Shown: positions 44,319-55,285 of the stretch, in pieces
Layout of the letters: each line of letters opens with the position of its first letter
Position numbering within the stretch: the stretch's first letter is position 1
Origin: Halorubrum kocurii JCM 14978
GTDB taxonomy: Archaea > Halobacteriota > Halobacteria > Halobacteriales > Haloferacaceae
Assembly (NCBI RefSeq): GCF_000337355.1
Contig: NZ_AOJH01000047.1
Coordinates: 1 to 59,719, forward strand
Direction of reading: 5' to 3'
Length of the DNA: 59,719 nt
Made by a program: the position numbers and the translations under genes
Notes under the pieces: generated by a model
The model's input: only the letters and a program-made list of their open reading frames with translations
Told to the model about the DNA's origin: nothing
Database searches by the model: none

Positions 44319-44403
44319 GCCCTCTCGCACCGCCGTTCGGTCGACCCTTTCTACTCCGACTGAGACGCGGGGTGTTTTGGCCGTCCCCGCCGAACGACGG
44401 GCC

Positions 44404-45231
44404 ATGAGCGACGACGTCTCACACGAGGACGGTCACGGCGACGACGGCGACGGCCACGATCATCACGTCGACGACGCCGACCACCACGACCACGACGGTC
44501 ACGACGACCACGGCCACCACGACGACCACGGCCACCACGACCACGGCCACCACGACGACCACGGCCACCACGACGACCACGGCCACCACGACGACCACGG
44601 CCACCACGACGACCAGCACGGCCACCACAGTCACGACGCCGACGACGTTGCGATCGCGGTCGTGACGGTATCCTCCTCGCGGTCGCAGGACGACGACCCG
44701 TCCGGCGACTACCTCGTTTCGTCGTTCGAGGAGGCCGGTCACGAGGTGGTCGTCCGCGACCTGGTCCCCGACGAGTACGACAGCGTGCAGGGGACCGTCG
44801 ACCGCCTCGCCCGCCGGAAGGACACCGACGCGGTCGTGACCGCCGGCGGAACGGGGGTGACGCCCGACGACGTGACGCCGGAGGCCGTGCGCGGGCTGTT
44901 CGCCAAGACGCTCCCCGGCTTCGGCGAGCTGTTCCGCCGGCTCTCCTACGAGGAGATCGGGACGCGCACCATCGGCTCGCGGGCGACCGCCGGCGTCGTC
45001 TCCGCCACCCCTGTCTTCTGTCTGCCCGGCTCCGAGAACGCGGTCCGGCTCGGCGTCGACGAGATCGTCCTCCCCGAGATCGGCCACCTCGTCGGGCTCG
45101 CGAGCCGGGGCGTGGAGGACGACGAGGAAGCGGGAGACGGCGACGAGGAAGCGGGAGACGGCGACGCGGAAGCGGGAGACGGCGACGCGGAAGCGGGAGA
45201 CGGCGACGCGGAACCCGACGACGACGCCTGA
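44404..45231 (+). CDS. moaB: MoaB/MogA-family molybdopterin adenylyltransferase with His-rich N-terminal extension
   Basis: 275 residues. Residues 80-235 are a MoaB/Mog domain: DVAIAVVTVSSSRSQDDDPS, AVVTAGGTGVTPDDVTPEAV and FCLPGSENAVRLGVDEIVLP. It binds molybdopterin and helps form the metal cofactor. Residues 7-78 hold about 31 His and many Asp in HHDDHG repeats, a strong potential Ni/Zn/Cu/Co-binding extension. The C-terminus carries EAGDGDA repeats. Start ATG 44404 was chosen because the tail and spacing to TTTTGG (about 44375-44380) fit. Haloarchaeal MoaB copies that I recall lack such a long His tract. Confidence 0.88.
   Translation: MSDDVSHEDGHGDDGDGHDHHVDDADHHDHDGHDDHGHHDDHGHHDHGHHDDHGHHDDHGHHDDHGHHDDQHGHHSHDADDVAIAVVTVSSSRSQDDDPSGDYLVSSFEEAGHEVVVRDLVPDEYDSVQGTVDRLARRKDTDAVVTAGGTGVTPDDVTPEAVRGLFAKTLPGFGELFRRLSYEEIGTRTIGSRATAGVVSATPVFCLPGSENAVRLGVDEIVLPEIGHLVGLASRGVEDDEEAGDGDEEAGDGDAEAGDGDAEAGDGDAEPDDDA
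44503..44628 (+). repeat. 18-base tandem repeat encoding HHDDHG
   Basis: Units of GACGACCACGGCCACCAC occur at 44503-44520, 44521-44538, a shortened 44539-44553, then 44554-44571, 44572-44589, 44590-44607 and a diverged 44608-44628. All are in frame, so copy-number change would alter the His tract by multiples of six residues without breaking the gene. Confidence 0.95.
45124..45207 (+). repeat. 21-base tandem repeat encoding EAGDGDA
   Basis: Four 21-base units (GAGGAAGCGGGAGACGGCGAC, the last two with GCG at the first codon) in frame in the moaB tail. An acidic halophilic tail. Confidence 0.9.
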
Positions 45232-45258: not shown

Positions 45259-45852
45259 TTAAATCGACGCGAGGAAGTTCCGGATGAGGTCGTGACCGGC
45301 CGCGGTCAGCACGCTCTCGGGGTGGAACTGCACCGCCTCGATCGGGTGGTCGCGGTGGCGGATCCCCATCACGATCTCCTCGCCGTCGTGGTCAGTGGTG
45401 GCGGTCACCGCGAATGCGTGAGGGATCTCGGTGGCGGCGAGCGAGTGGTAGCGCCCCGCGCGGAACCCCTGATCGAGCCCGGCGAACACCCCCTCGCCGT
45501 CGTGGTCGACGGGGAACGCCTTGCCGTGGATCGGCTCGGGCGCGTGGCCGACCGTCCCGCCGTACTCGTAGACGGCGGCTTCGAGGCCGAGGCAGACGCC
45601 GAGCGTCGGGACCTCCGGGGAGAGGTCGCGCAACACGTCCATCGTCACGCCCACGTCGCGCTCGTTCTTCGGGTGGCCGGGGCCGGGACTGATCAGGATC
45701 GCGTCCGGGTCGGCGTCGCGGATCGCCGCGAGCGACGCGGTGTTCTTGAACACCTCCACGTCGACGGGTTCGCCGTCGAGGGGCTGGTCCGAGACGTACT
45801 CGACGAGATTGTAGGTGAACGAGTCGAAGTTGTCGACGACGACGACCTTCAT
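45259..45852 (-). CDS. trpG: Anthranilate synthase glutamine amidotransferase subunit
   Basis: 197 residues. VVVDNFDSFTYNLVEYV start, oxyanion SPGPGHPKNE, nucleophile Cys in LGVCLGLEAAV and His-Glu in AVQFHPESVLT. It supplies ammonia from glutamine to TrpE. The usual LGVCLGHQ is LGVCLGLE here. Its ATGA overlaps the trpE stop; last gene of trpDFEG. A T-rich TTTTAAAT lies in the convergent gap with moaB. Confidence 0.96.
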   Translation of the reverse strand: MKVVVVDNFDSFTYNLVEYVSDQPLDGEPVDVEVFKNTASLAAIRDADPDAILISPGPGHPKNERDVGVTMDVLRDLSPEVPTLGVCLGLEAAVYEYGGTVGHAPEPIHGKAFPVDHDGEGVFAGLDQGFRAGRYHSLAATEIPHAFAVTATTDHDGEEIVMGIRHRDHPIEAVQFHPESVLTAAGHDLIRNFLASI

Positions 45853-47522
45853 TCGTCGACCTCCGTGCCAGCGGGGAGGGGGTCGTCGGAGGAGGCGGAG
45901 TCGTCTTCGGCTTCCGCGCCGCCCACCCGGATCCGGTCGATCGCGGCCAACACGCCGTCCATCTTCTGCTCGGTCTCCTCGTACTCGGCGGCCGGGTCGG
46001 AGTCGGCGACGAGCCCGGCGCCGGCGCGCACGGTCACCGCGGTCTCCTCCGGGCCGCTCGCGTCCGGCGGCGACTCGTCGAGCGTCGCCGTCCGGATCAC
46101 GATGGCGAAGTCGGCGTCGCCGGTCCACGCGTAGTAGCCGACGCCGCCGCCGTACGCCTCCCTGGGGGTCGTCTCCAGCTCCTCGATGATCTCCATCGCG
46201 CGCACCTTCGGGGCGCCGGTGAGCGTGCCCGCGGGGAACGTCGCGCGCGTCGCGTCGAAGGCGTCAGCGTCGCCCGCGAGGGTCCCCGTCACGGTCGACT
46301 CGATGTGCTGGACGTGGCTGTACTTCAGCACGTTCATGAACTCCTCGACGCGGACCGAGCCCGCCTCCGAGACGCGCCGGACGTCGTTGCGCGCGAGGTC
46401 GACGAGCATCGTGTGCTCGGCGCGCTCCTTCGCGTCGGCGAGCATCTCGCCCGCGAGCCGGCGGTCCTCGACCGGGCTCGTCCCGCGGGGGCAGGTGCCC
46501 GCGATCGGGTTCGAGACGATCCGGTCGCCCTGCACCGAGACGAGCGTCTCGGGGCTCGCGCCGACGATGCTCCGGTCGTCGTGGCGCAGGACGTACATGT
46601 ACGGCGAGGGGTTCACCTCGCGCAGCGCCGCGTACAGCCCGAGCGAGTCGACCTCCCCGCGGAGCTCGCGGCTCCGCGAGATCACGCCCTGGTAGATGTC
46701 GCCGTCGAGGACGTGGCGCTTCGCGGTCCGAACCGCCTCCTCGTATTCCTCCCGGGGACCGGCCGACTCCGACGCCACGCGGATCCCGTCGGGCTCCGGC
46801 GGCGCGGCCTCGCGCAGCTCGGCGCCCACCCGCTCCGCCTCGGCGACGAGGTCGTCGTAAACGGCCGCGGGGTCGTCGTCGACCCCGATCACGGGCGTGA
46901 AGACGATGTCGGCGGTCCCCTCTTTCTCGTCGAAGACGACGGTCCGCGTCGTCAGCGCGAACTCGGCGTCCGGAAACTCCGTCCCGGGCCGCTCGACGCC
47001 GACCTCCTCCAGCCAGAGGTCGTAGACGGCCTCGTACGCGAGGAATCCGACGAAGCCGCCCGAGAGGATCTGCCGGTCCGTGTCCGGGAAGCCGCGCAGG
47101 CTCACGTCCGGGAACGCCGCCCGGATCCGGTCGATCGCGTCGCCGGCGTCGGGCCCCAGATCGCTGTCGGGCTCGTCTCCGACGAACTCGGCCGCCGGCC
47201 CGAGCCGCGTCACGTCGGTCCGGTCCGGGTGGACCGAGACGATCGCATCGGGGTCGTAGCCGACGAACGAGTAGCGCGCGTGTTTGTCGGCGTCGCCGTC
47301 GGCGGTGAACGCCCCGTCGGGGTCGCTGGAGGCGACCTTCTCGCCGGACTCCAAGAGGAACCCGTACGGCCCCTCGCCGACCAGCGTCGCGTACGCCGCG
47401 AGCGGGGTCACGTCGGCGTCGAGCGACGCGGACGCGCGGACCACGACCGGCTTCTCGGCGTCGGCCGCGAGGTCGACGAACTCGGCCTTCGAGCGGTCGA
47501 GCGGAGTCGCCGACGCGGTCAT
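45849..47522 (-). CDS. trpE: Anthranilate synthase component I
   Basis: 557 residues. The N-terminal part has the tryptophan feedback motif FLLESGEK; the chorismate-binding half has VNPSPYMYVLRHDD, GASPETLVS, NPIAGTCPRGTSP and TGAPKVRAMEIIEELE. It makes anthranilate from chorismate with TrpG. The start overlaps the trpF stop (ATGA). First committed step of tryptophan synthesis. Confidence 0.97.
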   Translation of the reverse strand: MTASATPLDRSKAEFVDLAADAEKPVVVRASASLDADVTPLAAYATLVGEGPYGFLLESGEKVASSDPDGAFTADGDADKHARYSFVGYDPDAIVSVHPDRTDVTRLGPAAEFVGDEPDSDLGPDAGDAIDRIRAAFPDVSLRGFPDTDRQILSGGFVGFLAYEAVYDLWLEEVGVERPGTEFPDAEFALTTRTVVFDEKEGTADIVFTPVIGVDDDPAAVYDDLVAEAERVGAELREAAPPEPDGIRVASESAGPREEYEEAVRTAKRHVLDGDIYQGVISRSRELRGEVDSLGLYAALREVNPSPYMYVLRHDDRSIVGASPETLVSVQGDRIVSNPIAGTCPRGTSPVEDRRLAGEMLADAKERAEHTMLVDLARNDVRRVSEAGSVRVEEFMNVLKYSHVQHIESTVTGTLAGDADAFDATRATFPAGTLTGAPKVRAMEIIEELETTPREAYGGGVGYYAWTGDADFAIVIRTATLDESPPDASGPEETAVTVRAGAGLVADSDPAAEYEETEQKMDGVLAAIDRIRVGGAEAEDDSASSDDPLPAGTEVDE

Positions 47523-48163
47523 GCCAGCTCCATCTCCCGCCCCGCGTTCGCCACGAAGCGGGCGACCGCGTTGTGGTCCTTGCGCCCGTCGGACAGCTCG
47601 ACGCCCGAGGCCACGTCGACCGCGAACGGGTCGGCGGCGCGAACCGCCTCGGCGACCGTGTCGGCCGTGAGGCCGCCGGCGAGGACCACGGGCGAGGTGA
47701 GCCGGGCGGCGAGGTCGCCGGCCCGCTCCCAGTCGTGGGTCTCGCCGGTGCCGCCCGCGCCGGACTCGTCGGTCGAGTCGATCACGAGCGCGTCGGCGAC
47801 CGCGTCGAACTCCTCGGCGCGCGCCGGGTCGTCCGCGTCGACCGCGAGCAGCACCTTCCGCTCCGTCTCGGCGCGGATGTACCGGATCTCGTCGGGCGTC
47901 CACTCGCCGTGGAGCTGGACGGCGTCCGGCGTGACCGTCCGCAGGAGCTCGACCGCGCGCTCGGCCGACTCGGGCATCGTGACGAGCGTCGCGGTGACGA
48001 ACGGCGGCACGTCGGCGAGCAGCTCCGCCGCCGTCGCCGGGTCGACCTCGCGGGGGGAGTCGACCGGGATCTCCGAGATGACGCCCACCGCGTCGGCGCC
48101 GGCGTCGACCGCGGCGCGGAGGTCGGCGCCCCGCGTCAGCCCACAGATCTTCACCCGCGCCAT
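47519..48163 (-). CDS. trpF: Phosphoribosylanthranilate isomerase
   Basis: 214 residues of a TIM-barrel. ARVKICGLTRGADLRAAVDA carries the catalytic Cys, VQLHGEWTPDEIRYI the conserved QLHG, and VVLAGGLTADTVAEAVR and VDVASGVELSDGRKD the phosphate and catalytic Asp region. It isomerises PRA to CdRP. One base of its ATG overlaps the trpD stop (TGATG). Confidence 0.96.
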   Translation of the reverse strand: MARVKICGLTRGADLRAAVDAGADAVGVISEIPVDSPREVDPATAAELLADVPPFVTATLVTMPESAERAVELLRTVTPDAVQLHGEWTPDEIRYIRAETERKVLLAVDADDPARAEEFDAVADALVIDSTDESGAGGTGETHDWERAGDLAARLTSPVVLAGGLTADTVAEAVRAADPFAVDVASGVELSDGRKDHNAVARFVANAGREMELA

Positions 48164-49242
48164 CAGTCTTCCTCCGGGGCGGCGGTCTTCGAGGCCGCCG
48201 CCTCGGCGTCCCCGGCCGACTCGCCCTCGACCGATCCGGCGGTGTCGCCGCAGAGGGCCGCGAACTTCGCCGCGGCCGCGCCGGAGTCGATCGCCTCGGC
48301 CGCGCGCTCGACGCCCGCCGCGAGCGTGTCGGCCTCGCCGGCCACGTAGATCGCGGCGCCAGCGTTGGCGAGGACGAGGTCGCGCTTTGGGCCGGTGACG
48401 GAGCCGTCGACGATGCCGCGGAGGTCGGCCGCGTTCTCCTCGGGGGTCCCGCCCGCGACGGCTTCGATCGGGGCGCGGTCGAGACCCAGGTCCTCGGGGG
48501 TGATGGTGAACTCCCGCACCTCGTCGCCGGTGACCTCGGCGGCCACCGTCTCGTCGTGGATCCCGATCTCGTCCATCCCGGCGCCGTGGACGACCAAGGC
48601 GTTCTCGACGGGCATGTGCGCGAGCGACCGGGCGATCGTGGGGACCAGCTCCGGGTCGTACACGCCGAGCACCTGCGCGTCGGCGCCGGCCGGGTTGGTG
48701 AGCGGGCCGAGGACGTTGAAGATCGTCCGCATCCCGAGCTCCTTGCGCGGGCCGATGACGGCCTTCATCGCCGGGTGGAACACCGGGGCGAGCATGAAGC
48801 CGATCCCGTCGTCCTCGATGGCGCCCTCCACCGCCGGCGGCTCGGCCTCCACGTCGGCGCCCGCGACCTCCAGCACGTCGGCGCTCCCCGACGAGGAGGA
48901 CACCGAGTAGTTGCCGTGCTTGGCGATCGGGACGCCGGCGCCCGCCGCGACGATCGCGGCCGTCGTCGAGACGTTGATCGTGTCGTAGTCGTCGCCGCCG
49001 GTCCCGCAGGTGTCGACGAGCGGCTCGCGCTCGGGCTCGATCGTCCGGGCGGCGTCGCGCATCCCCTGCGCGAACCCCGCGATCTCCGCCTCGGTCTCCC
49101 CCTTCGCGCGGAGCGCGGCGAGCAAGGCGCCGATCTGCGCCTCGGTCGCCTCCTCGAAGACCAGCCGCGCGGCCTCGCGCGCCTCGTCGACCGTCAGGTC
49201 TGTCCCCTCCGTCACGCGTTCGACCGTGTCGTTGATATTCAT
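48163..49242 (-). CDS. trpD: Anthranilate phosphoribosyltransferase
   Basis: 359 residues from ATG 49242. Motifs: DTCGTGGDDYDTINVSTTAA, KHGNYSVSSSSGSADVLE, and APVFHPAMKAVIGPRKELGM, then NVLGPLTNPAG. It adds PRPP to anthranilate. First gene of the operon, downstream of TGTACA boxes and a TATA box at 49292-49300. The longer ORF from 49329 was rejected because it would cross these promoter elements. Confidence 0.97.
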   Translation of the reverse strand: MNINDTVERVTEGTDLTVDEAREAARLVFEEATEAQIGALLAALRAKGETEAEIAGFAQGMRDAARTIEPEREPLVDTCGTGGDDYDTINVSTTAAIVAAGAGVPIAKHGNYSVSSSSGSADVLEVAGADVEAEPPAVEGAIEDDGIGFMLAPVFHPAMKAVIGPRKELGMRTIFNVLGPLTNPAGADAQVLGVYDPELVPTIARSLAHMPVENALVVHGAGMDEIGIHDETVAAEVTGDEVREFTITPEDLGLDRAPIEAVAGGTPEENAADLRGIVDGSVTGPKRDLVLANAGAAIYVAGEADTLAAGVERAAEAIDSGAAAAKFAALCGDTAGSVEGESAGDAEAAASKTAAPEED

Positions 49243-49244
49243 TG

Positions 49245-49290
49245 TGTACACCGATGTAGTGTTTCGCGTTGTGATGTACAAGTATGTACA
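49245..49290 (-). promoter_or_regulatory. Candidate trp operator: three TGTACA boxes
   Basis: TGTACA, itself a palindrome, occurs at 49245-49250, 49275-49280 and 49285-49290. The last two lie inside a perfect inverted repeat GATGTACA-AGTA-TGTACATC (49273-49292). The first box is followed by CCGATGTA, giving two TGTACA-N4-TGTA units 30 bases apart. They cover the region from the TATA box to just before the trpD ATG, where a bound regulator would block initiation. TGTACA is also the TRP-box consensus reported for TrpY in Methanothermobacter, as I recall. Confidence 0.75.
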
Positions 49291-49291
49291 T

Positions 49292-49300
49292 CGGTATAAC
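49292..49300 (-). promoter_or_regulatory. trpD: TATA box of the trpDFEG operon
   Basis: GTTATACCG on the minus strand, about 54 bases upstream of the trpD ATG, predicts transcription start near 49269 and a leader of about 25-30 bases. Confidence 0.55.
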
Positions 49301-49389
49301 GCTGTCGCCGGGCTGAGAACCGATAGCACGCGTTGAGGAGCGGGGGAGGACGTTGGAGGTGAGAGGGGAAGCGGAATCGCGGGGCCGGA

Positions 49390-51852
49390 TCAGTCGTCCG
49401 CGGCTGCGGGCGCGGGCTCCCGTTCGGGAGCGGCCGGCGCCTCGGGGTCAGCCGCGGCCGGGTCGGACGCGGCCGGTTCGGGCGCGGGCCGCCACTCCAT
49501 GTCGCGCTCGTACTCGAACGCGCGGTGCTCCTGGGTCGGGTCGACGACGGTCAGCGAGAGCCAGTCGTTGTCCAGCAGTTGGACGACCGCCTCGTGGTCG
49601 GCGAGCGCCTCGGCGACGCGCTCGACGGGCGCGTGGACGACCGTCGAGAGGCGGAGCGGCTGGTGGTACGGCTCGTCGTCGGCCGCCATCAGCGACTGGA
49701 GCGGGAGCCCGGTCATCAGGTCGCCGCCGTTGCCCTGATAGACGCCGACGTTCCCGACCGGGTTGTGGGTCACCTTCGACCCGCTCCCGTAGACCGCGTT
49801 GTCGACGGTCGAGAAGTAGTACTGGGCGTTGATCCACTGGGTGACGACCATCGGCCCCGTGAGGATCGCCTCCAGCGCGTCGCCGTCGGGGTCGGTCGAC
49901 CAGTCGTACGAGTGGAGGAAGGCGCGCCCGTCGAGGTCGAGGTCGCTCGTCAGTTCGCGGGGGCCGACGACGAAGCCGGCGTTGCCAGCCAGTCCCCACT
50001 CGGGACGCGTCTCGGCCCAGTCGGCGGCGCGGCGCTCGGTCTCGTCGACGCTCGCCGCCGCGTCGCCCCCCATCGACGAGGCGCGCTCGGCGGTCGCGTC
50101 CTCGCGGGCGGCGGCGAGGTCAGCGCGCAGCCCCTCGAGGTCGTCCGCGTGGCTCTCGGGCACGTCGCCGTAGAGCTCGATCTCGTCGGTCGTCGTGTTG
50201 TGCTCGCCGGCGAGGAAGACGGTGTCCTCGGGGATCTCGAAGCCGCGGTCGCGCAGCGCCGCCCGCACGTCGGGGTCGGCGCAGATCTCGGCCAGGACGC
50301 GGGCGTTCGGCCCGCCGGGGTTGCCCGCGCACGCGCCGCAGTCCAGGCTGGAGTCGTAGGGGTTGTTCGTCGTCTCGCTCGCGTGCCCGACGAAGGCGAC
50401 GAGCCGACCGAACTCCGTCCACCCCATCAGCTCGAAGGCGGTGGCGGCGTACTCGACCCGCTCCTCGCGGGTCAGGCCCACCGGGAGGTCGCCGGCGTGA
50501 GTGTGTTGGTGCCGAACGATCTGGTCGCAGAACTCGTGGTCGTCCGGGACCGCCGCGTCGGCCGTGTCCAAGAGGCCGTGGACGCGGCCGGGTATGAGCG
50601 TGCGGGCCGCGAGCGCTAGGCCGTAACCGCTCCCGGCGTTCTCGACGAAGCCGAAGGCGCTGGCGGGGTTCGTCTTCAGCTTCTTGACGACCTCGCCCGC
50701 GACCTCGCGGACGCTCGACCACCGGTTGTGGCGGTCCTTGGCTTCCCCGTCGGTCGGGACCTCGCTGATGCGGTGTTGCGCGTCGAGGATGGGCGGACAG
50801 GCGTCCACCGACACCTCGGCGTCGTACCCCCGGTACTCCATCGGGATGCCGAAGAAGCCGGCGTAGCCGTGCGTCTCGTACTCGCCCGCGGCCTCGATGT
50901 GACGGCGGATCACTTCCGAGCGGGTGTCGATACAGAAGACCAGCTGCGCGTCGGGGCGCTCGGACGGGTCGCTCTCGGCCCGCTTCCGGCTCTCGGCGGA
51001 GACCCGGTCGACGACCGCCGAGCGGTAGCTGGCCTCCCACGCGCTCAGGAACGCCTCAGCGACCTCGTCGGTCGGGTCGGCGTCGGGGGCGTCGGGACCG
51101 GTGGACGGCTCGACGTCGACGCCGAACCCGTCGAGGAGCGCGAGGCGGACGGCGAGGTACCCCGCGAGCGTGATCGGACACGCAGACTGCCACGCCCCTC
51201 CGTCGGCCGCGCGCTGCTTGATGAGGCCGGTCCACCCCGGGAGCGCGGCCAGCTGCTCCTCGAAGATGGGCACCCACTGCCCCTCCGGATACGGCTCCAG
51301 AACGGCCTCGATGGTCTCGACCGGCGTGTCGGGCAGCGACGCGAGGACCCCCGAATCGGGGATTTCGCCGTCGTGCGGGGCCAGCTCGCGGAAGGCGGCG
51401 TAGAACCCGTCCTCGCGGTTCGGCATCGACCACGTGGCGTGCCCCTCGTCGAGGAAGGCCGACAGCCACTTCGCCAGCACGGTGTCGACCCGCTCGGCGG
51501 CGGTGTCGGACTCGTCGGCGTCTGACTCGTCGGTCCGCGCCCCCGACTCGGCGCCGGCGTCCACGCGTTCGAGCAGCGTTTCCGGGTCGGCGTCGTAGCC
51601 GCGGTCGGCGAGCGCCGACTCGAGCCGCTCCGGGTCGATCCGGCCGTCGTCGAGGGCCATGCGGAACGTCTCCCGACTCGGGTAGCCGCGGCCGCCGAGC
51701 AGGTCGGTCGCCTGCGTCACCGCCTCGCCGAACGTCATGTCTTCGAACCCCGAGAGGGGGTTGGCGGTCACGAACGAGTGGATCGGCCAGACCGACCCGA
51801 CCGTCGTCGCCGCGTCGTCGATACCGTCTTCGATGGTGGAGTGAGTGCTCAT
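49390..51852 (-). CDS. dabA: DabA-type inorganic carbon transport subunit (DUF2309/UPF0753)
   Basis: 820 residues. The beta-carbonic-anhydrase-like metal site is visible: FCIDTRSE gives Cys307 and Asp309, FVGHASETTNNPYDSSLDCG gives His490 and Cys505. The H-to-C spacing of 15 and C-to-D of 2 match the zinc/active residues described for Halothiobacillus DabA (C351, D353, H524, C539). DabA with the membrane subunit DabB uses an ion gradient to hydrate CO2 to bicarbonate. The C-terminus ends in an Ala/Pro/Glu tail. Its ATGA overlaps the dabB stop. Confidence 0.93.
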   Translation of the reverse strand: MSTHSTIEDGIDDAATTVGSVWPIHSFVTANPLSGFEDMTFGEAVTQATDLLGGRGYPSRETFRMALDDGRIDPERLESALADRGYDADPETLLERVDAGAESGARTDESDADESDTAAERVDTVLAKWLSAFLDEGHATWSMPNREDGFYAAFRELAPHDGEIPDSGVLASLPDTPVETIEAVLEPYPEGQWVPIFEEQLAALPGWTGLIKQRAADGGAWQSACPITLAGYLAVRLALLDGFGVDVEPSTGPDAPDADPTDEVAEAFLSAWEASYRSAVVDRVSAESRKRAESDPSERPDAQLVFCIDTRSEVIRRHIEAAGEYETHGYAGFFGIPMEYRGYDAEVSVDACPPILDAQHRISEVPTDGEAKDRHNRWSSVREVAGEVVKKLKTNPASAFGFVENAGSGYGLALAARTLIPGRVHGLLDTADAAVPDDHEFCDQIVRHQHTHAGDLPVGLTREERVEYAATAFELMGWTEFGRLVAFVGHASETTNNPYDSSLDCGACAGNPGGPNARVLAEICADPDVRAALRDRGFEIPEDTVFLAGEHNTTTDEIELYGDVPESHADDLEGLRADLAAAREDATAERASSMGGDAAASVDETERRAADWAETRPEWGLAGNAGFVVGPRELTSDLDLDGRAFLHSYDWSTDPDGDALEAILTGPMVVTQWINAQYYFSTVDNAVYGSGSKVTHNPVGNVGVYQGNGGDLMTGLPLQSLMAADDEPYHQPLRLSTVVHAPVERVAEALADHEAVVQLLDNDWLSLTVVDPTQEHRAFEYERDMEWRPAPEPAASDPAAADPEAPAAPEREPAPAAADD

Positions 51853-53351
51853 TGTGCGCCTCCGTTGTCGTACTCGTTCGCGTTCGTCAGCACGGTGCCC
51901 GGCGAGGGTTGGCCGGCGTTCAGGAGCGCGACGTAGAGCCGCCGGCTGCGCTCGTGGACGCCCGCCTCGATCGCGACGTACGCGGCGAGGAAGGCGACGG
52001 CCACGAGGCCGTGGAGCGCGGTCAGCTCGGTCGGCGCCGAGGCGACCGGGACCCCGGTCAGGAGCCCCGAGACCCCCTTATAAACGAGCGCGTACACGGT
52101 GATCGCCGGGAGGAAGACCAGCGGGATCGCCCCGTAGCGGACCGACGCCGGCAGCGACACATGCCGGACCGCGCTCCGCGCCGCGTGGAGGGTGGTGAAC
52201 ACCACGAACAGGACGAGCAGGAGCCCGCTGTCGACGCTCGTTCCCTTCCCCGTCAGCAGCACGAACGCGGCGCCGCCGGCCAGCCCGGTCAGGAGCATCA
52301 CGGCGACGTCGGCGACGCCGGAACCGCCCGTCGCGCGCCGCGCCTTCTTCTCCGGACTCGTCCGCTCGACCAGCTGTCCCGAGCCGAGGAACTGGTACGC
52401 CTTATAAAACCCGTGCAGCACGAGGTGGGTGATCGCGGCCCCGAAGAAGCCGAGGCCGGCCTGCATGATCATGAATCCCATCTGTCCCGACGTCGAGCAG
52501 GCCAGTTTGCTCTTGACGTCCGCCCGGACGGACTTGAGGAGCTTCCCGAGCAGGGCGCTGGCCGCGCCGACCGCGACGATCGCGAGCATGAGGCGCTCGT
52601 CGACCGTGACGACCGGCGCGAAGCGGAGCAGCAGGACGCCGCCCGCGTTGACGAACCCGGCGTGCATCAGCGCCGACGCCGGCGTGGGGGCGGTCATCGA
52701 GGAGAGCAGCCAGCCGTGGAACGGGACGAGCGCGGACTGGATCATCGCGGCGAGGACGAGGGCGACGGCGGCGAGGAGCCACACCGGGCCGCCGAGCGCG
52801 TCGGCGCTCGCGGCGATGCCCGAAACCGTCGTCGCGCCCGTCGCCCACCAGAGCGCCGCCAGCGCGACGCCGAGGAGCGCGCTGCTCGCGAGGAAGGAGC
52901 GCCGGGCGACCGCCGCGGCGGCCCGCGCCTGCTCCCACCCGCTGACGACGCCGATCAGCTTCGCCATCAGCAGTCCCATCGCGAGCCACAGGGCCCCGAA
53001 CAGGGCGACGTGGTCCGCGGCGACGAGCGCCATCACGGCGATCGAGAACCCGAACACGGCGAGGAAGAACTCCGTCTCGTTGGCGCTTCCAGCCATATAC
53101 CGGCGCGAATAGCTGTGAACGATGCCGCTGAAGAAGGCGACGACCACCCACATCAGGACGGTGAGGCCGTCGACGGCGACCACGCCGGGGACCTCCGGCG
53201 CGAAACCGAGTCGGACTCGACCGAAGAGGGCCGCGAGGCTCGCGGCGAACAGCGACCACGTGAGCCACGTGAGTGCGACGGGCACGAACGGCGAGTCCGT
53301 CGTCGTGTCCGGTAGCGCTCCGACCGTCTGTTTCGGGGTAGAGCCTGACAT
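51849..53351 (-). CDS. dabB: DabB-type NuoL-like membrane subunit (proton-conducting transporter family)
   Basis: 500 residues with about 13 helices. NuoL/MrpA-like motifs: FFSGIVHSYSRRYM, PFHGWLLSSMTAPTPASALM, HAGFVNAGGVLLLRFAP and KLACSTSGQMGFMIMQAGLG. In the DAB complex this subunit couples cation flow to DabA. Coupled translation with dabA (ATGA). Respiratory complex I and Mrp genes are absent nearby, supporting the DAB assignment. Confidence 0.92.
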   Translation of the reverse strand: MSGSTPKQTVGALPDTTTDSPFVPVALTWLTWSLFAASLAALFGRVRLGFAPEVPGVVAVDGLTVLMWVVVAFFSGIVHSYSRRYMAGSANETEFFLAVFGFSIAVMALVAADHVALFGALWLAMGLLMAKLIGVVSGWEQARAAAAVARRSFLASSALLGVALAALWWATGATTVSGIAASADALGGPVWLLAAVALVLAAMIQSALVPFHGWLLSSMTAPTPASALMHAGFVNAGGVLLLRFAPVVTVDERLMLAIVAVGAASALLGKLLKSVRADVKSKLACSTSGQMGFMIMQAGLGFFGAAITHLVLHGFYKAYQFLGSGQLVERTSPEKKARRATGGSGVADVAVMLLTGLAGGAAFVLLTGKGTSVDSGLLLVLFVVFTTLHAARSAVRHVSLPASVRYGAIPLVFLPAITVYALVYKGVSGLLTGVPVASAPTELTALHGLVAVAFLAAYVAIEAGVHERSRRLYVALLNAGQPSPGTVLTNANEYDNGGAQ

Positions 53352-54787: not shown

Positions 54788-55261
54788 TCAGTCGTCCGTC
54801 TCGCCGTTGAACTTGCCGAAGGGCGTCGTCTCGTGGCTTCGAACGAGGACCTCGTCGGCGACCGTGAGCCCCATGTCGAGGAGCTCCTGTGCGACGGGCG
54901 TGATGTCGCTGTCCGACTCTCCGACCACCGTCACGAGGAGGTTCTGTTCGCCGGTGACCAGCTCCTGGACCGAGACGACGCCGTCGATCGCGAGGATCTC
55001 CGGGAGCAGCTCGCCCCGCTCTGGTATCGACGCGGTGCAGTAGAGCAGCATCCGGAGCGGATACCCCGACTTCTGGTAATCGACGTCGGCGCTGTAGCCC
55101 TTGATCACGCCGTCGGACTCGAGGCGTTGGATACGCTTGCGGACGGTGCTGTCGGACGTCCCGGTCCGCTCCGCGATGTCCCCGGACGACATGTTTCGAG
55201 CGTCTTCTTGTAACGCGTACAGGATCGCCCCGTCCACGTCGTCTATCGCGTCGTCGGCCAT
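54788..55261 (-). CDS. Lrp/AsnC family transcriptional regulator
   Basis: 157 residues from ATG 55261. Winged HTH: DDVDGAILYALQEDARNMSS, GDIAERTGTSDSTVRKRIQR and LESDGVIKGYSADVDYQKSG; then the RAM-type effector domain. A C-terminal ETTPFGKFNGETDD tail follows. It probably responds to an amino acid. Strong AT-rich TATA at 55286-55298. Confidence 0.93.
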   Translation of the reverse strand: MADDAIDDVDGAILYALQEDARNMSSGDIAERTGTSDSTVRKRIQRLESDGVIKGYSADVDYQKSGYPLRMLLYCTASIPERGELLPEILAIDGVVSVQELVTGEQNLLVTVVGESDSDITPVAQELLDMGLTVADEVLVRSHETTPFGKFNGETDD

Positions 55262-55285
55262 ACGAACCGTCCGTGGCACGGCTAC

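Follow-up and report, generated by a model that had tools for sequence, protein, structure and literature searches.

TGTACA operator arrays at the trp promoters of haloarchaea and a TrpY-family protein as their candidate regulator

The window, that is, the whole 59,719-nucleotide stretch of Halorubrum kocurii JCM 14978 DNA analyzed here, carries trpD, trpF, trpE, and trpG on the minus strand, in the order that the earlier note had rightly given (Table 1). Upstream of trpD, positions 49390-53351 hold two further minus-strand genes, for an 820-aa protein and a NuoL-like membrane protein. The former, which has no NCBIfam match, resembles DabA, and the pair may form an inorganic carbon transporter of the DabAB type. 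Positions 44377-45231 encode a MoaB-type molybdenum cofactor protein, and its long N-terminal His/Asp/Gly-rich repeat (HDDHGHH) possibly binds metal. The window also contains an Lrp/AsnC-type regulator (54788-55279), located 5.5 kb from trpD, for which no named NCBIfam Lrp model reaches its cut-off.

Table 1. Genes and promoter features of the trpDFEG locus (window positions)
Feature	Positions	Strand	Basis or remark
trpG, haloarchaeal anthranilate synthase component II	45259-45852	-	NF041322, above cut-off
trpE	45849-47522	-	Assigned by sequence resemblance
trpF	47519-48163	-	Assigned by sequence resemblance
trpD, anthranilate phosphoribosyltransferase	48163-49242	-	TIGR01245, 410.9 bits
Operator unit 2, degenerate TGTACA-N4-TGTA	49245-49260	-	Centre 30 bp from unit 1
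Conserved spacer, predicted transcription start (~49270) and column-42 C	49265-49275	-	Alignment
Operator unit 1, TGTACA-N4-TGTACA	49275-49290	-	Flanks stretch the palindrome to 49273-49292
BRE/TATA region of the trpDFEG promoter, CGACAGCGTTATAC	49294-49307	-	Alignment columns 1-14 (70 genomes, no gaps)

The promoter has TGTACA at 49245-49250, 49275-49280, and 49285-49290, all of them between the trpD ATG (49242) and the TATA box, which spans approximately 49294-49299 on the minus strand. Two of them form part of GATGTACA-AGTA-TGTACATC, an inverted repeat that is perfect and has 4 bp between its arms; the other opens the sequence TGTACA-CCGA-TGTAGT, and the centres of the two units are exactly 30 bp apart. 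The earlier note had described three TGTACA boxes from TATA to ATG, two of them in perfect inverted repeat, and two TGTACA-N4-TGTA units 30 bases apart. The coordinates confirm both descriptions, with the second unit being degenerate. The trpD transcription start was derived solely from the TATA spacing and falls near column 38 of the alignment described below; consequently, unit 1 would fall in the interval from TATA to start, and the leader would contain unit 2. In DNA of roughly 72% G+C, the window contains seven TGTACA hexamers against 1.2 expected, a count that none of 100 dinucleotide shuffles reached, and none of 300 shuffled windows had three TGTACA inside 46 bp or any TGTACA-N4-TGTACA. 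Across the whole 3.6-Mb genome, TGTACA-N4-TGTA occurs at the trpD promoter only, and a reversed control pattern gave zero matches. A chance origin of the cluster is ruled out by the shuffles together with this genome-wide uniqueness.

The trpD gene was found in 193 of 194 haloarchaeal genomes, and its upstream DNA was compared in 70 genomes from 49 genera and 9 families. A 65-bp block aligned without gaps in all 70, so the boxes, whose absence from trpD of related species would have spoken against the earlier note, are a shared feature of these genomes. The block reads CGACA-N3-TTAA (BRE/TATA), TGTACR-N4-TGTACA, a spacer with a near-invariant A and C, and then CRTACATTGGTGTNCA, which is the second unit seen on the other strand. 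Positions A5, T9, and T10 are near-invariant, and A38 and C42 are kept at 99%. The C at the fifth base recurs at columns 22, 32, 42, 52, and 62 in strict 10-bp phase, the spacer C at column 42 thus being in phase with the half-sites. Information content averages 1.36 bits per column over the BRE/TATA columns 1-12, 1.37 in unit 1, and 1.09 in unit 2; the flank upstream of the block has 0.04-0.14, and the opening 40 nt of the coding region have 0.39. The mean match to TGTACA over the 70 genomes is 5.24 and 5.54 of 6 for the half-sites of unit 1 and 4.47 and 3.81 for those of unit 2, against a background of 1.34. Among 15 congeners, the exact 16-bp palindrome occurs about once per genome (twice in G203 and in G199), and it sits at trpD in nearly all congener loci read. 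One genome (G031) carries another trpD-like gene (L280:438-1439), which has a TGTACA array to itself and lies on a contig other than that of the main trpD. A further genome (G001, L314), whose assembly is 86% complete, gave no match for trpD or for the TrpY-like gene discussed below but still has a trpC with a degenerate array, and it was not taken as evidence that the two genes were lost together.

A related array lies upstream of trpC, the first gene of trpCBA, which in the window genome is on contig C88, apart from trpD on C47. The consensus of 70 genomes, CGCAAG-N-CTTA-TGTACA-N4-NGTNCR-N4-TGTACA-NTA-ATG, contains three TGTACA-like half-sites at 10-bp steps that extend from the TATA box to the ATG in all but about one of the 70. 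Their mean matches are 5.59, 3.99, and 5.49 of 6, with other offsets averaging 1.39; one genome (L129) has lost most of the first half-site. The window genome has TGAACA-N4-CGTGCA-N4-TGTACA at this place. The earlier note had pointed to trpCBA and to a TrpY-like gene as further places for the boxes, and at trpCBA this expectation holds, in the same genome and in its relatives; upstream of the TrpY-like gene, the boxes are absent in haloarchaea.

The genome-wide specificity of the trpC array was explored with a sequence profile of it (R1) in 59 genomes. In every genome with listed trpC coordinates (59 of 59), the best match was at trpC, and trpD was the next to recur. The few other recurrent matches fell at a methyltransferase-like gene family and at L280, the second trpD paralogue of G031. 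The single-genome matches L282, L283, L285, L286, and L293 shared no common gene and were treated as chance. The methyltransferase-like family, which has no Pfam or NCBIfam match, was found with strong matches in 13 of 98 genomes; the promoter array is present in five of these (L299-L303), which come from several families, and absent in eight. Three-half-site arrays stand at such genes in L279 (1397-1429), L284 (1513-1535), L292 (1541-1560), L302, and L303. The family may belong to the trp regulon as an accessory member.

Judging from these alignments and searches, the boxes almost certainly serve as the operator of a trp regulon that is conserved in haloarchaea. A different explanation for the conserved block would be an element of the trpD mRNA leader that controls translation or attenuation. 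In its favor, the predicted start precedes unit 2 and part of the spacer, which would therefore be transcribed. However, unit 1 lies upstream of that start, the trpC array reaches the ATG and leaves almost no leader, and what is conserved are palindromic half-sites in 10-bp phase. An Rfam search of the block returned no family match, its sole hit being far under the gathering score, and the RNA element, to which we give hardly any credence, was set aside.

For an operator on DNA, the position of the sites bears on the sign of the control. Archaeal repressors usually sit between the TATA box and the start, whereas activators usually sit upstream of the BRE; the haloarchaeal sites overlap the TATA-to-start region in trpC and the gap between TATA and start in trpD. 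This placement argues against an activator needed when tryptophan is scarce, a reading that we consider improbable. The example for such an activator is Tar (TK0271) of Thermococcus kodakarensis, which, like the regulator proposed here, would be matched to aromatic amino acid operons of an archaeon by half-sites of the TGNACA type; in Thermococcus, Tar activates the trp, aro, and tyr-phe operons via TGGACA-N8-TGTCCA (PMC6737238). The half-site is related, but the N8 spacing differs, the tar gene lies within aro operons of Thermococcales, and outside this order homologues have been reported from just a few genomes (PMC6737238). In Halobacterium salinarum, withholding aromatic amino acids induces all seven open reading frames of trpCBA and trpD1FE1G1 in parallel, and the co-transcribed OE1472F rises 12.5-fold (PMC4162585). 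Such induction suits either sign. By analogy with Methanothermobacter, and given sites over TATA and start as well as the published induction, we infer that the action is repression and that tryptophan is the co-repressor.

The identity of the regulator is approached through the methanogens. Methanothermobacter TRP boxes read TGTACA, and the earlier note had linked the haloarchaeal hexamers to TrpY on this ground. This link has gained support. The TrpY query was taken from Methanobacteriaceae as the gene divergent from trpE, and the trpY-trpE intergenic regions of 10 of 10 methanogens contain a TGTACA-N4-TGTACA pair with at most one mismatch (two in one case), immediately upstream of the trpE TATA box; only 0-1% of shuffles contain one. 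Where trpE has no adjoining trpY, the pair is missing from most upstream regions, and a few have a match with two mismatches. In haloarchaea, the same query finds exactly one full-length homologue per genome in 193 of 194 genomes.

In the window genome (G000), this homologue (L212) is encoded at C23:17825-18319 and is unlinked to the trp genes on C47 and C88. With 230.2 bits, it passes the NCBIfam TrpY_fam model NF053754, whose cut-off is 180. The protein is predicted to consist of an N-terminal helix-turn-helix and a C-terminal ACT domain. Pfam places ACT above its cut-off and reports no helix-turn-helix, a call that rests instead on the AlphaFold2 model (pLDDT 87.6, helices 44-51 and 55-67, ACT fold from residue 94) and on the VDRR motif of the putative recognition helix, which nearly all TrpY-family members keep; the ACT signature is also conserved in the alignment. 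The matches in the PDB are amino-acid-sensing ACT domains, and no solved structure with full-length sequence homology was found there.

The comparison with the Methanothermobacter thermautotrophicus system of TrpY and TRP boxes (trpEGCFBAD) shows likenesses and differences. In both, TGTACA half-sites are paired at 10 bp in a trp promoter, and the haloarchaeal genome encodes a TrpY-family protein of the helix-turn-helix and ACT type above the curated cut-off. In contrast to the single Methanothermobacter operon, haloarchaea have two separate operons, with the three-half-site array at trpC and, at trpD, two units whose centres are 30 bp apart. Furthermore, trpY of Methanothermobacter is autoregulated and divergent from the trp operon, whereas the haloarchaeal gene is unlinked and has no array of its own. 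No array was found upstream of it in 30 genomes from across the class (median score -15.0, maximum 6.3; trpC median 38.1), nor was one seen in 12 congeners, so autoregulation through the boxes was rejected.

Homology alone is a weak argument for TrpY, since the TrpY homologue of T. kodakarensis, which shares 42% identity with the Methanothermobacter protein, neither binds nor regulates its trp promoter, and the functions of the haloarchaeal homologues cannot be estimated according to the same 2019 paper (PMC6737238). This homologue, the missing array at the trpY-like gene, and the proposal of LrpA2 as regulator speak against a TrpY circuit. The main competing explanation is that another protein uses the same operator, an Lrp/AsnC protein such as LrpA2 binding the palindromes and controlling both trp operons. 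Lrp proteins often bind short palindromes, at times in phased arrays, and the Lrp-like gene of the window is close to trpD. In H. salinarum, LrpA2 (OE2776F, trh1) rises 14.9-fold without aromatic amino acids and was proposed as a haloarchaeal regulator of their biosynthesis in the 2014 paper, which left open the regulator of these genes (PMC4162585). However, this induction, the sole basis of the proposal, may be indirect according to its authors (PMC4162585). The 16-bp unit, moreover, marks methanogen trp promoters whose divergent neighbor is trpY and not an Lrp gene. The trpD neighborhoods in four other genera share no regulator gene; therefore, the Lrp of the window is not a conserved neighbor of trpD, and the idea of a regulator linked to trpD was dropped. 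Overall, control by an Lrp protein seems unlikely to us.

On the other hand, two distant groups of archaea share the operator word together with the pathway and the protein family, and for this reason the TrpY-family protein is likely to be the haloarchaeal trp regulator. With nearly the same confidence, we propose a class-wide regulon in which a dimer of this single-copy protein would bind TGTACA-N4-TGTACA and sense tryptophan through its ACT domain. At trpD, the regulator would occupy the two units on the same helix face, first in the gap between TATA and start and then in the leader; at trpC, it would cover the three phased half-sites from the TATA box to the ATG. Once bound, it would shut out TBP, TFB, and RNA polymerase, so that trpDFEG and trpCBA would be repressed jointly when tryptophan is plentiful. 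The parallel induction of the trp genes in H. salinarum is consistent with this circuit, and the trpD and trpC sites offer the cis element that it was missing.

It is also conceivable, with chances that we place a little short of even, that TRP box and TrpY, rather than being shared through transfer or convergence, are the ancestral trp control of Methanobacteriaceae and haloarchaea, in which TGTACA-N4-TGTACA was kept despite changes in operons, G+C content, and gene order, and which in some haloarchaeal lineages captured an unrelated methyltransferase-like gene. The analysis names a candidate regulator and supplies a concrete operator and a regulon of two operons, all of which can be tested in Haloferax volcanii. 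If the circuit is true, it would represent a rare archaeal pair of operator and regulator apparently conserved between distant phyla, and it would provide a natural tryptophan-repressed promoter.
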